From the NCBI RefSeq assembly GCF_018139565.1, contig NZ_JAGSPK010000005.1, positions 1 to 64,000 of the forward strand: DNA of 64,000 nucleotides, read 5' to 3'. Positions 6,624 through 11,252 of this stretch are shown in pieces. The DNA is from Cognatundibacterium rivi (GTDB taxonomy: Bacteria; Pseudomonadota; Gammaproteobacteria; Burkholderiales; Burkholderiaceae_D). Position 1 is the stretch's first letter. Every line of letters begins with the position of its first letter. The notes beneath the pieces are model-generated. The model had not been told where the DNA came from and made no database searches. It saw nothing but the letters and a program-made list of their open reading frames with translations. Both the position numbers and the translations under genes were made by a program.

Positions 6624-8189
6624 TTAAGAATCAAGCTGCAAGCTGATCTGGCGCGCTGCATCCAATACCGCTATCGCTTTGGCAATAATTTCGTCTGCTT
6701 TATTGCCGCCACCATTAATTTCATTCACATCGCTCAATGCCGCCGTGATGAGGCGTGCACTCAGGCACAGGCGCAAGGCACTGACAGGAATCTGCTGCTG
6801 GACGCCACAAGTCACGGGTTGCCCCACTTGCATTTGCTTTTCATTTTGTAAGCGACGGTACACCGACATGGTCTGCTCACGACTTAATGGCACACCGGAT
6901 GCGTGATGTAATACAAACGGAAAAATCGTCGGCCATTGATCCCAGCCAGGCGTTGCCGCTAACACTTGTCTGTCGGGCATAGGAACCGGTAACAACGTCA
7001 GACCGGGATGCGCATCAAAATACGTCAATACCGCATGGCGGAAGGCTTGCACAAACTGATTGATCGCGTCGTCAGACAAACTGCGGAATGCCCGCAATTC
7101 TGCCATCGCGGCCACCCAGCGTACCAGTAATCCGACATTCGCCTTCTTTTGCAAATCTTCCATCCCAGTCCAGGATGCAGGCCAGTCGGCACGACTGGAA
7201 TACGCATACAAACCTGCCGGCGCGGTTTGTTGCCGGTATCTGATTACCGCATCCGAAGGGAAAAATAAGGCACCTGAAAAACTGGGGCCAGAGATAAATT
7301 TTGATCCGGTCACCGCAACTAAAAACTGCTGTTCCAGATAAGCGTTCAGCGTCGCATTGGTCAGCCTGAACTGGCAGGCATCAACCAGCACCTCAAGCTG
7401 ATCGGGAAATTGATTCCGTAAGGTCAATGCACATTGCACAGACGGCCCTATCATGCCGGTTTTGGTCACGTCAGCCAACACCAGCAACACGCGCTTATTC
7501 TGACCACACGCGGTGGTGATCAGCAACTCGATTTCTTTGTCAATCTCATCGGCAGTGCGCGGCTCTCCATCTGCGTCGCGCAACGCGACGTTGACCAATT
7601 CAGAGGCTACAGCCTGTCCCACTTGCTGCCCGGGATTCACGGGCTCACCCAGCGCTGCACAATCGCTGAAATGCAAACCCTGCAACGCCGCTGGCACCGA
7701 ACTTCCGGTCTCACCCGGCTCCACCATCACTATCAGCGAAGGGGTGGACGATGCACCAGCAAATAACTGTGAAGCGATTAAATGCAAATCGGTGCCGGAG
7801 GCGGCAAATACGACATCCACCGCATCGCCGGTCTGACACAACTGCTTTAATTCCTGACGCAGGTTCTGCATTTCTTGTTCATACACGGAATACAGCGAAG
7901 ACTGCGAGGACTCCATTTCGTCGCGATACGCTTGCACGATCTTCTGATAGACATCATCTGCCGCAGCAAAACCGTGTTGAGAAATCGTTGATGCAGTTGC
8001 CGAGCCAAATGCAAACAAGCTCTCTTCGGCACTTTGCGGCGCGACGCTACAGCCGTACTTATTTACACCATGCGTATCCAGCGCGATGCGCGAATCACCG
8101 CCATTCACCAGCAATTGCGCCAGCGACGGAATCTTCGTGCCAGACGCGCATGCAGGTCTCACAGCAGATGACATAGCATCGTTGCTCAT
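6624..8189 (-). CDS. Class V aminotransferase-like PLP-dependent enzyme
   Basis: A 521-residue fold-type I PLP protein. The cofactor-binding signatures are visible: Asp270 and Gln273 in V-D-A-C-Q-F-R (the D-A-x-Q motif contacting the PLP ring) and the Schiff-base Lys297 in G-S-K-F-I-S-G-P followed by S-F-S-G, as in cysteine desulfurase/aminotransferase class V enzymes. The N-terminus carries N-K-Y-G-C-S-x-x-P, resembling a substrate-loop motif of the same class. The specific reaction is not recognisable. It is the third gene of a tight operon: its ATG overlaps the TGA of the ATP-grasp gene by four bases, implying translational coupling. It probably modifies or breaks down the same small molecule as its two partners. 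Confidence 0.75.
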   Translation of the reverse strand: MSNDAMSSAVRPACASGTKIPSLAQLLVNGGDSRIALDTHGVNKYGCSVAPQSAEESLFAFGSATASTISQHGFAAADDVYQKIVQAYRDEMESSQSSLYSVYEQEMQNLRQELKQLCQTGDAVDVVFAASGTDLHLIASQLFAGASSTPSLIVMVEPGETGSSVPAALQGLHFSDCAALGEPVNPGQQVGQAVASELVNVALRDADGEPRTADEIDKEIELLITTACGQNKRVLLVLADVTKTGMIGPSVQCALTLRNQFPDQLEVLVDACQFRLTNATLNAYLEQQFLVAVTGSKFISGPSFSGALFFPSDAVIRYRQQTAPAGLYAYSSRADWPASWTGMEDLQKKANVGLLVRWVAAMAELRAFRSLSDDAINQFVQAFRHAVLTYFDAHPGLTLLPVPMPDRQVLAATPGWDQWPTIFPFVLHHASGVPLSREQTMSVYRRLQNEKQMQVGQPVTCGVQQQIPVSALRLCLSARLITAALSDVNEINGGGNKADEIIAKAIAVLDAARQISLQLDS

Positions 8190-9442
8190 GCGTCGTCTGA
8201 AGACTGCAGACCCAATGCCGCGGTGGATGCACGCTTGATTAACAAATCTCTGAATGCCGCAAACAGTTTTTTCATCGTCGCCTGTTTATAGGGAAACATC
8301 TCCACCGGATCCATTGCATGCACTATCATGTCGCTATCCACTTCAAATATCAGCAGCTTACCGTCCGGCGTTTCGCCACAATCAATGCCGACATAATCCA
8401 AGCCCAATTTATCGTAAATTTCTTGCAGCGCCAGTGTATGACGCGGCACAAATTCCGTATCAAAACTTGCCATAAAGCGCTGTTCTTCCGCGCGCTTTTC
8501 AGCACTTTCTGCCATACCGGCATTCAGATAATGAATCATCCAATGCTGAGAAATACCCATGTGCGCAATATACGGTTTGCCGTCAATCAGCATGACACGG
8601 TATTTTCTGAACTGGCCATCGGCGCTGCGATAGTCAACAAAGCGGGCGATGTAGAATTCGTCACTCTGTATTTCCTGCAGATACGCTGCGATTTCTGCTG
8701 GTGACACCAGCTTCTCAAGACCATGACCCGCATGTGAATCGAGTGGCCGCACGATGATGGGAAAATCATCACCGGGCAATAAATCGCTGACAGATAATTC
8801 ACCACGCCCGATTTGCTCCAGCATCTGACGGCTGATCCGGCGTGACATCGGCATTTCAACACCACGCGCCGCTTGCAATTGCAGATACGCGCGGTCACGT
8901 CCCAGATGGGCAATACGTTCCGGCTGATTGATCACAGGGCGCGGCCATTGTGAGATGATTTCCTGCAAATCGAGCAGCAGAGCATGCTTGGCGTCGGCCT
9001 CGCCAATCGCCACAAACATCACATCATGTTCAGGCAATTGCTCCAGCGCAGGAATGCCCTGCCCCACGTACAACAAATCCAGATCGATATCCGAATCCTC
9101 CACCAGAAAATCGACTGGCGTATTCGCCATCAGATCACCGTCAGTCAACAGCGCCAGCAATTTGATTTTTGCCGGATGCGCCGCGGGTACCGAATACAAA
9201 GGCTGCTTTTTTAACGCTTCCATTTGTGTGGTTGCTGCCAACTCAGCGTGGCCGAGCAAGAGCAGCACCGTCGATAAATCCAGCATCGCGTTCGCATCGT
9301 CTGGATACTGCTGCGCCCGCGCAATCAAACTGTTTGCCAGCGGTTTTAAATCTTCCCCGGCAAATGCCCGCCGCATCAAAGGTGCGAGGCCGGTGTACGA
9401 ACTATGTTGAGAACTTTGCTGCGCTTCGTTAAGAGTCGTCAT
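8186..9442 (-). CDS. ATP-grasp ligase with TPR-like N-terminus, unknown substrate
   Basis: A 418-residue protein. Residues ~20-95 look like tetratricopeptide helices; the rest resembles a RimK/glutathione synthetase-type ATP-grasp fold, with the nucleotide-binding segment I-I-V-R-P-L-D-S-H-A-G-H-G and the late Mg-binding segment F-E-V-D-S-D-M. Such enzymes join a carboxylate to an amine through an acyl-phosphate. It sits between two PLP enzymes: 14 bases after the decarboxylase gene and overlapping the class V enzyme gene by four. A carboxylate-amine ligation of an amine made by the decarboxylase is a reasonable inference, but no substrate can be named. No precursor peptide gene was seen in the operon. 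Confidence 0.75.
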   Translation of the reverse strand: MTTLNEAQQSSQHSSYTGLAPLMRRAFAGEDLKPLANSLIARAQQYPDDANAMLDLSTVLLLLGHAELAATTQMEALKKQPLYSVPAAHPAKIKLLALLTDGDLMANTPVDFLVEDSDIDLDLLYVGQGIPALEQLPEHDVMFVAIGEADAKHALLLDLQEIISQWPRPVINQPERIAHLGRDRAYLQLQAARGVEMPMSRRISRQMLEQIGRGELSVSDLLPGDDFPIIVRPLDSHAGHGLEKLVSPAEIAAYLQEIQSDEFYIARFVDYRSADGQFRKYRVMLIDGKPYIAHMGISQHWMIHYLNAGMAESAEKRAEEQRFMASFDTEFVPRHTLALQEIYDKLGLDYVGIDCGETPDGKLLIFEVDSDMIVHAMDPVEMFPYKQATMKKLFAAFRDLLIKRASTAALGLQSSDDA

Positions 9443-9456
9443 ATCTGAAACCAGGT

Positions 9457-10914
9457 TTATTGAGCGGTTTGCGCCAGCAGGTCGCCCTGCGCAATGGCGG
9501 CATTAATCAGAGCATCGATATCTTCGACCCGGGTGCGGTGATTTACGATCGCCGCGCGAATTGCCAGTTGCCCGCGAATGTATGTCGTTGATGGCGCGCA
9601 GATGCCGCCCTCATGCAAGGCGACAACGATATCGCCGTTCAGTGCATCCAGATCTGCGCTACGCTCGCTGAGGTAACGGAAGCAAACGATATTGAGATTC
9701 ACCGGTGCAAGTAATTCCAGCTTGGGATGTGCCTCCACCTGTTGCTTCAGGTATTGTGCCAGTTCGCAGGTGTGCGCAATCATTTTCCCCAGACGTTCTG
9801 TGCCATAGACCTGCAAAGTGAACCATGTTTTCAGTGCGCGGAAACCACGCGACAAATCCGGCCCGAAATCGCAAGGCCACGGCGAGCCGCCAGCCAGCCC
9901 TCTGGTTTCCCGCCGCAAATAGCCGACCGGCGTGGCAAACGTCGCCAAATGCGCCTCGCGATCCCTGATCAGAATAAAGCCGGCATCGTAAGGCACCTGC
10001 ATCCATTTATGAAAATCAAACGCGACTGAATCTGCGCGTTCCATGCCCGCCAGCCGCGGTGCCAGCACTGGCGACAACATTGCCAGCGCACCGAAAGCGC
10101 CATCAATATGGAACCAGATTTTTTCTTCCGCAGCGATATCAGCAAGCGTAGTCAGATCATCTATCGCGCCGACATCGACCGACCCTGCAGTGCCTGCGAT
10201 GAAAAATGGTGTCAGCCCGGCTGCCCGATCTGCCGCCATCGTCTCGCGCAAAACAGCGGTATCCATTTCAAATGCGCTGGTCATGGGAATCATGCGCAAA
10301 GCATCTCTGCCTATGCCGGAAATATCCATCGCCTGCGCGATACAGCCATGCGCACCCGCCGAAGCGTAGGCAACCAGACGCTGCTCGCACGAAGCCAAGC
10401 CTGTTTTCCGCACCGCTGTTCCCAGTGCCACCGAACGCGCCACCAGCACGGCGATGAAATTCGCCATCGATGTGCCCGTTACAAATAAGCCACTCGCGCT
10501 TTCTGGAAAACCCAGCAAGGTACTGACCCAGCGACAGACCTGACGCTCGACTTCAATCGGAATATGATTGCGCCCACCCAGATTCGCATTCAAGCCAGCT
10601 GCCAGCATCTCCGCCAGCGTGCCGACAGGATTACCGCCGCCCTGCACCCAGCCCATGAAACCGGGATGACTGTTTCCCACCGAGTACGGCAAAATATCCT
10701 GCATAAACTGCTGATGCACCGCCGCCAGATCGCCCTCGCCCTGCGGCAAGTCCTGCTGAAATTTCGCCCGCACCTCATCCGGAATCGGCTGCCATACTGG
10801 CCGCTCGCGAATATGCTCTGCGTAATCAAGAATATCGTCCAGCATGCGATGCCCCTGGGCGCGCAGCGCGCTCCAGTCAGCCGGGTCCAGCGTAGTTGAA
10901 GTTGGTGTTGCCAT
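9457..10914 (-). CDS. Group II PLP-dependent amino acid decarboxylase
   Basis: A 485-residue enzyme of the aromatic-L-amino-acid / glutamate / 2,4-diaminobutyrate decarboxylase family, converting an L-amino acid to its amine plus CO2. Visible signatures are H-I-D-G-A-F-G (PLP-ring Asp) and the Schiff-base Lys303 in F-D-F-H-K-W, with the upstream T-G-T-S-M-A-N phosphate-binding segment. The reading frame extends upstream to a TTG at 11010, but homology starts at the ATG at 10914 (M-A-T-P-T-S). It is the first gene of the three-gene operon running to 6624. The substrate (aromatic, acidic or diamino) cannot be read from the sequence with confidence. Confidence 0.85.
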   Translation of the reverse strand: MATPTSTTLDPADWSALRAQGHRMLDDILDYAEHIRERPVWQPIPDEVRAKFQQDLPQGEGDLAAVHQQFMQDILPYSVGNSHPGFMGWVQGGGNPVGTLAEMLAAGLNANLGGRNHIPIEVERQVCRWVSTLLGFPESASGLFVTGTSMANFIAVLVARSVALGTAVRKTGLASCEQRLVAYASAGAHGCIAQAMDISGIGRDALRMIPMTSAFEMDTAVLRETMAADRAAGLTPFFIAGTAGSVDVGAIDDLTTLADIAAEEKIWFHIDGAFGALAMLSPVLAPRLAGMERADSVAFDFHKWMQVPYDAGFILIRDREAHLATFATPVGYLRRETRGLAGGSPWPCDFGPDLSRGFRALKTWFTLQVYGTERLGKMIAHTCELAQYLKQQVEAHPKLELLAPVNLNIVCFRYLSERSADLDALNGDIVVALHEGGICAPSTTYIRGQLAIRAAIVNHRTRVEDIDALINAAIAQGDLLAQTAQ

Positions 10915-11140
10915 TATCTGTTCATCATAGATTGTTCTGATGAACGCATTATCTCTGAGACTCGGCGAATTTAAGCCAGAAACAAGCGATCTTTTGCGGT
11001 CTTTATTCAAATTACGGCCAATTCCCGCCGAATCCCGTCGCTACACGCAAGCAACTTGCGCCGCAACATCAGACAGGCACCAACGTCAGACACATCGCGC
11101 ACCGCTTCAGAATGCCTGTTTTTGCCTGTCAATAATGAAA

Positions 11141-11252
11141 ATATACTAGGGGGGAGTATTTTTAAACGCCCTTATTTTCTGCTGAGAATAAGGCATTTTT
11201 GACGCATACTCCCCGATTTTTGCAGAAAATGACGTTTTTGGATGTGCTCAAA
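11141..11252. repeat. Intergenic hairpin repeat, copy A
   Basis: Contains ATATACTAGGGGGGAGTAT (11141-11159), a stem-loop (11168-11194, arms GCCCTTATT / AATAAGGC around a TGCT loop) and a second arm CATACTCCCC (11205-11214). It ends with a block starting GACGTTT and ending GCTCAAA (11231-11252), identical at 17 of 22 positions to the end of copy B. It lies in the 384-base gap between the KAP NTPase gene and the decarboxylase gene, about 230 bases upstream of the latter. No gene was seen in the rest of the gap. Confidence 0.65.

Follow-up and report, generated by a model that had tools for sequence, protein, structure and literature searches.

The flagellin modifications known so far are for the most part sugars that glycosyltransferases attach. 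The subject of this work is a three-gene cassette, A-B-C, on the minus strand of a 64,000-nucleotide stretch of Cognatundibacterium rivi DNA (contig NZ_JAGSPK010000005.1, positions 1 to 64,000; hereafter the window), which encodes a decarboxylase, an ATP-grasp ligase and a second pyridoxal phosphate (PLP) enzyme, and whose relatives recur beside flagellar genes, mostly filament ones. Published excerpts on the type B flagellin of C. difficile report that the ATP-grasp enzyme CDR20291_0245 is required for a terminal amide-linked cap (PMC5207246), and that this cap is made of taurine, alanine and glycine (PMC5207245). The type B system (CDR20291_0242-0247) likewise lies in the flagellin region together with an ATP-grasp enzyme, but glycosyltransferase genes belong to that unit, whereas none is found among A, B and C. 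The excerpts list glycosyltransferases as well as FemAB-like, ornithine cyclodeaminase-like and amino-sugar aminotransferase-like proteins, and they mention neither a decarboxylase nor a class V PLP enzyme. A further parallel is Caulobacter FlmG, a flagellin glycosyltransferase whose TPR domain, according to the excerpt available, binds flagellins (PMC7591256). FlmG and related TPR glycosyltransferases, as described there, carry a TPR domain at the N-terminus ahead of a catalytic domain, as the product of gene B does, although the catalytic domain of B is a ligase rather than a glycosyltransferase and its TPR-like part is short, comprising four helices. The flagellin modification system of Shewanella, in the part of the source at hand (PMC3765264), involves other enzymes and is not used as evidence here.

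In the window, gene A (9457..10914, minus strand) is the first gene of the operon and encodes a group II PLP-dependent decarboxylase of family PF00282; gene B (8186..9442, minus strand) encodes N-terminal TPR-like helical hairpins and a RimK/LysX-type ATP-grasp ligase domain; and gene C (6624..8189, minus strand) encodes a remote class V-type fold type I PLP enzyme. Genes B and C share a 4-base ATGA overlap, and gene A has a second possible in-frame start, a TTG at 11010. A preliminary description of this DNA, made from its letters alone, had proposed a tight operon of three enzymes of these types with intact active-site motifs, including Lys297/Asp270 of C; the operon is confirmed, the enzyme types were named rightly, and the motif residues are conserved across relatives. 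Judged by sequence, all three enzymes look catalytically intact, with residue roles that we take from their families.

The distribution of the cassette was followed through gene C, for which 75 loci from 31 genera were examined (the window, L029-L050, L109-L130 and L156-L185); the C match G293, whose locus was not fetched, and the fragments G535, G757 and G871 (E 1e-4 to 9e-4) are outside this set. C was found in 23 of 98 relatives, in 25 of 398 genomes across the phylum, in 39 of 300 genomes of the order of the window (one a weak fragment) and in 10 of 239 genomes of the Bradyrhizobium order (two weak fragments). Counts with distant paralogues included are 32/98 relatives for B and 44/98 for A, and A by itself is not specific, having relatives below 60% identity in 415 plasmid records. 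The co-occurrence of the three genes elsewhere, which the preliminary description had suggested checking, is borne out: at 60 of the 75 C loci they stand side by side on the same strand, with at most 226 bases between aligned domains. Their order is A-B-C in 53 of these, C-B-A in five and B-C-A in two, and because three gene orders keep the same partners, the genes are taken to be functionally linked. Protein distance matrices over the 60 loci are likewise correlated (A-B 0.78, A-C 0.86, B-C 0.82). A-B-C is a widespread co-inherited unit.

The new element is the recurrent linkage of this unit to flagellar genes, mostly filament ones. Pfam searches on neighbouring genes first revealed flagellin, FlgK and an FlgE-like protein at a Bradyrhizobium-type locus, FliD at locus L128 and FlaG at locus L033. 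A flagellin, FliD or FlaG gene lies within 10 kb of C in 20 of 46 C genomes, against at most 1.14 expected at random with kinship not corrected; G293 was scored as a miss in this test. A homology scan placed flagellar genes within 10 kb at 27 of the 75 C loci, in 8 of the 31 genera, and within 2 kb at 22 of those 27, the flanks examined often being shorter than 10 kb. The scan seeds came partly from the same loci, so their own matches are circular there and the identities rest on Pfam. Among loci collected after the flagellar idea had arisen, 7 of 30 have flagellar neighbours, and Pfam confirmed flagellin and FliD at L183, flagellin at L179, and rod/hook proteins at L166, L171 and L182. Rod/hook genes alone are the neighbours in one genus, and the cassette of the window has no flagellar gene nearby. 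On a tree of 74 C proteins (L030 was omitted as truncated), the flagellar-neighbour label switches 15 times, at least eight of them forced by well-supported branches; the association is therefore recurrent rather than one inherited place.

Individual lineages show how close this linkage can be. Five Bradyrhizobium-type loci have the co-directional order flgE-flgK-(FlgE-like)-C-B-A, and fliC comes next in the four with a long enough contig. The C protein of this lineage carries the name Bll5850 in UniRef entries of the genus, and the C gene of Bradyrhizobium diazoefficiens appears to be bll5850; for A and B we infer bll5848 and bll5849. The filament genes fliC1-4 of B. diazoefficiens are, in the excerpt available, bll5843-bll5846 (PMC4823718). 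At L128 the order is fliC-flaG-fliD-A-B-C, at L050 and L160 it is fliC-flaG-fliS-fliK-A-B-C on one strand, and at L036 and L178 the cassette and fliC-flaG-fliD-fliS-fliK run towards each other.

Of 43 Undibacterium genomes, 20 hold a flaG copy next to A, A-B or A-B-C, either upstream and co-directional or convergent beside C. Gene A is present in all 20 genomes with the flaG copy there and in 6 of the 23 others (Fisher p 2e-7). Seven loci of this genus hold, between flaG and A, a gene for a protein of 311-328 amino acids with an HEFGH zinc-protease motif and a weak Peptidase_Mx1 match (L033:4601-5536; equivalents in L034, L035 and L131-L134). Loci L131-L134 and L143-L146 present a stepwise loss in which first A-B and then A alone is retained beside the flaG copy, and at L132 (G010) gene B is broken by an internal stop. 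This retention of A-B or A alone, together with the broken B, is what would be seen if the cassette were a decaying remnant in Undibacterium with just A still useful, for example in biogenic amine production. We hold that explanation to be very improbable: the three genes of the window are intact with all catalytic residues, and the complete set stands at most C loci.

The enzymes themselves were compared with characterized families. Gene A passes the curated cut-off of PF00282 clearly (220 bits vs 27) and, like the aromatic, diaminobutyrate and PanP decarboxylases of group II, has the catalytic Lys, Asp and His. His189, Asp271, His302 and Lys303 are identical in 74/74 relatives; by analogy with the family, Lys303 is presumably catalytic, Asp271 PLP-binding and His189 stacking. 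Asn109, Asn111, Gly113 and Arg115 are kept in 73/74 with one gap, and our guess is that Arg115 might suit a polar or acidic substrate. The best solved relative by sequence is 4obu, the tryptophan decarboxylase of Ruminococcus gnavus. Every specific NCBIfam cut-off is missed by far, and A was rejected on the equivalog cut-offs as L-2,4-diaminobutyrate decarboxylase (the best score, 175.5 vs 900 bits), as PanP (126.9 vs 606.1 bits) and as MfnA (79 vs 299.4 bits).

Gene B combines TPR-like hairpins at about residues 19-79, which the structure model shows as helical hairpins, with an ATP-grasp ligase domain at about residues 93-410. The nearest folds are RimK and LysX/ArgX. RimK ligates glutamate to ribosomal protein S6, and the target of LysX/ArgX is the carrier protein LysW, so that all of them are protein-acting; B differs from them by its extra N-terminal helical domain and an identity of just 13-19%. 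It falls below the cut-offs of the RimK family model TIGR00768 (23.7 vs 143.4 bits) and of the Pfam TPR models (TPR_20, 18.5 vs 25 bits), while Arg232, His237, Lys280, Asp354 and Glu367 are kept in 68/68 relatives. The family is large, with at least 4209 proteins, and names among the 120 matches listed are mostly "hypothetical protein" or generic. Two long proteins at L141:6052-11352, in another genome, are distantly B-like fusions in which the ATP-grasp domain is joined to TPR arrays or other additional sequence; their genes stand immediately upstream of flhB- and flhA-type genes and of a gene for a signal recognition particle-type GTPase that is flhF-like by position. B homologues also adjoin a different class V aminotransferase at L191:8938-11303 and L139:5538-8287 (SerC by annotation in Paraburkholderia sp. 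FT54), a hint at a recurring pair of B and a class V enzyme.

Gene C passes on the class V, fold type I PLP fold and on the PLP-binding Lys/Asp pair: Lys297, Asp270, Gln273, Lys243 and Arg473 are kept in 74/74 relatives. It falls below the Pfam cut-off of the class V aminotransferase family PF00266 (12.6 vs 21.5 bits), and no solved relative was found by sequence, profile search included; the VIA-align fold lists do not name every fold family, and absence from such a list is uninformative. Identity to class V PLP enzymes such as C-DES cystine lyase, NifS and alanine-glyoxylate aminotransferase is 8-18% over the 50 entries listed, and C is set apart from them by the invariant Lys243 and by having no conserved cysteine but Cys272. 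This cysteine, two residues past the PLP aspartate, is the sole invariant one in 47 aligned C proteins and is kept in 71/74 of the wider set. Cysteine desulfurases carry their catalytic cysteine on a mobile loop. A role as cysteine desulfurase was rejected, though no superposition was made, because no suitable conserved cysteine is present, Cys272 beside the PLP aspartate being the only conserved one. The C family numbers at least 1606 proteins, and among the 120 matches listed most are called "hypothetical protein" or bear generic names. A methyltransferase domain is fused to the C-terminus of C at L036:9024-11537 and in P0116, which suggests that the product is methylated at times. Divergent C genes at L118:7740-10586 and L119:4123-10641 lie near ATP-grasp types other than B (ATPgrasp_ST, and a GARS_A-like one with A in between).

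The operon, its wide co-inheritance, the folds of the enzymes, their conserved active sites and the repeated siting near flagellar genes are established here. We put forward, as a proposal with about even chances of being right, that the three enzymes by themselves form an amide-making pathway and that its product decorates the flagellar filament; its substrates, step order, acceptor and effect on the filament are what we infer. In this scheme, A would decarboxylate an amino acid to an amine, B would activate a carboxylate with ATP and join it to an amine, and C would supply or tailor the other amino-acid component by PLP chemistry. The pathway logic of the preliminary description, in which an amine is made and ligated and a second PLP enzyme is used, may hold. 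Two features suggest that B may act on a protein, most probably one of the filament: the folds closest to it are those of protein-acting ligases, and it carries N-terminal TPR-like helices comparable with the flagellin-binding TPR domain of FlmG. A modification of the filament is plausible because the C. difficile ATP-grasp cap enzyme and the TPR-flagellin binding of Caulobacter FlmG serve as precedents. The decorated part could be flagellin, the glycan of flagellin, or a partner such as FlaG. In the genome of the window, a TPR-GT41 glycosyltransferase gene (L149:6356-8560) adjoins fliC-flaG-fliD, and genes for a nucleotide-sugar enzyme and a methyltransferase also adjoin fliC; glycosylation of flagellin there is therefore probable. 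An amide-linked group could be attached by A-B-C to this glycan, or the cassette could act directly on a filament protein. A bolder form of the proposal we consider unlikely: flagellin or FlaG itself would receive a decarboxylated or PLP-tailored amino acid from the RimK-like B, whose TPR-like helices would dock on that protein, and the outcome would be a non-glycan amide modification.

Several observations weigh against a flagellar role. No flagellar gene occurs in the stretch examined at 48 of the 75 C loci; of these, 20 have less than 5 kb on one side owing to contig ends or fetch limits, and 28 do not. The window cassette stands apart from flagellar genes, with the flagellin of its own genome on another contig. 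On the C tree its closest relatives are L031 and L032, whose short contigs (12 and 4 kb) show no flagellar neighbour, and then L033-L035, which are flaG-linked. In genus g294 and at locus L171, the neighbours belong to the rod and hook, not to the filament. At the genus level, the p value for 8/31 is 4e-4, 0.01 and 0.1 at null rates of 3%, 5% and 8%, which weakens the statistics. Among complete genomes, flagellin was found in 21/21 with C vs 262/317 without C in the phylum sample, and in 20/20 vs 54/67 among relatives (p 0.02 in each), both weakly informative; a simple presence/absence link to flagella was set aside as too weak, since flagellin is present in 330/398 and 82/98 of the Proteobacteria sampled. 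A sigma-28 promoter scan found sites scoring at least 10/12 upstream of 7/68 cassettes vs about 3% in shuffles, no clear general signal, in a scan that is itself weak, as the fliC of the window genome scored just 9. As a separate observation, a sigma-28-like site about 120 bases upstream of the aligned A start is conserved in L050 and L160 (one genus) and resembles the site before their fliC.

Rhizobial plasmids add two further points on the same side. A plasmid of Rhizobium tumorigenes carries B-C-A with no flagellar gene annotated in the stretch shown, and a C homologue on pSMED03 of Sinorhizobium medicae (37% identity; L189:4723-6258) overlaps by 4 bases a giant nonribosomal peptide synthetase (NRPS) gene that encodes condensation, adenylation, carrier and thioesterase domains; close by lie genes for a SagB-type dehydrogenase and a phosphopantetheinyl transferase. 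Because of these homologues, the general task of C is probably to supply or tailor an amino-acid unit for joining by either an ATP-grasp ligase or an NRPS; this fits an amide-forming pathway, not necessarily a flagellar one. Both plasmids, the 48 loci without flagellar neighbours and an EamA-type transporter upstream of the cassette at L127 favour the idea that A-B-C makes a freestanding small amide or peptide-like metabolite, such as a signal, osmolyte, metallophore or antibiotic, with the flagellar site reflecting hitch-hiking or shared regulation. We treat this as a tentative possibility, less probable than the filament proposal: alone, it fails to explain the flagellin, FlaG, FliD, FlgK, FliK or rod/hook associations in eight genera and the flaG copy beside the cassette in Undibacterium, and no transporter is encoded among A, B and C, small precursor-peptide open reading frames not having been searched for. 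It is decidedly improbable, in our judgement, that the cassette is co-regulated with motility and acts on a different surface structure, be it lipopolysaccharide, capsule or an unrelated protein. Its distance from flagellin in the window genome and the occurrence of B homologues beside other class V enzymes and glycosyltransferases would agree with such a role, but the genes that recur next to the cassette are those of filament, hook-junction, hook-length and rod/hook proteins rather than those of surface polysaccharide enzymes.

Around the cassette, the window holds a KAP-type NTPase gene on one side and a hybrid histidine kinase gene on the other. Between the KAP NTPase gene and gene A lies a strong RNA hairpin (11130-11230; z -3.84), probably a terminator of the KAP gene; a similar sequence is present in the U. 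aquatile-like relative L031, and the RNA element upstream of gene A has no Rfam match. A role of A-B-C in a defence system was rejected, as PADLOC gave no match to the three proteins at E 0.01.

A known cofactor or natural-product pathway was also rejected: no description of the A-B-C gene set was found among the matches listed in open-licence PubMed Central text, which does not cover subscription journals, and within that scope the earlier remark that the genes match no known pathway stands. Three points go beyond the preliminary description: the repeated siting of the cassette near flagellar genes, the structural kinship of B to ligases that act on proteins, and the relative of C that is linked to an NRPS. 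If the proposed amide-forming pathway acting on the filament is true, the decarboxylase-ligase-PLP set, which recurs with flagellar genes in Alphaproteobacteria (Bradyrhizobium) and several Burkholderiales families, would point to another kind of chemistry, based on amides, on a surface protein that is among the most abundant in bacteria. Motility, adhesion, phage binding and plant immune recognition could be influenced by such a modification. It would also provide a first function for the C family and a lead for the larger family of B-type ligases.
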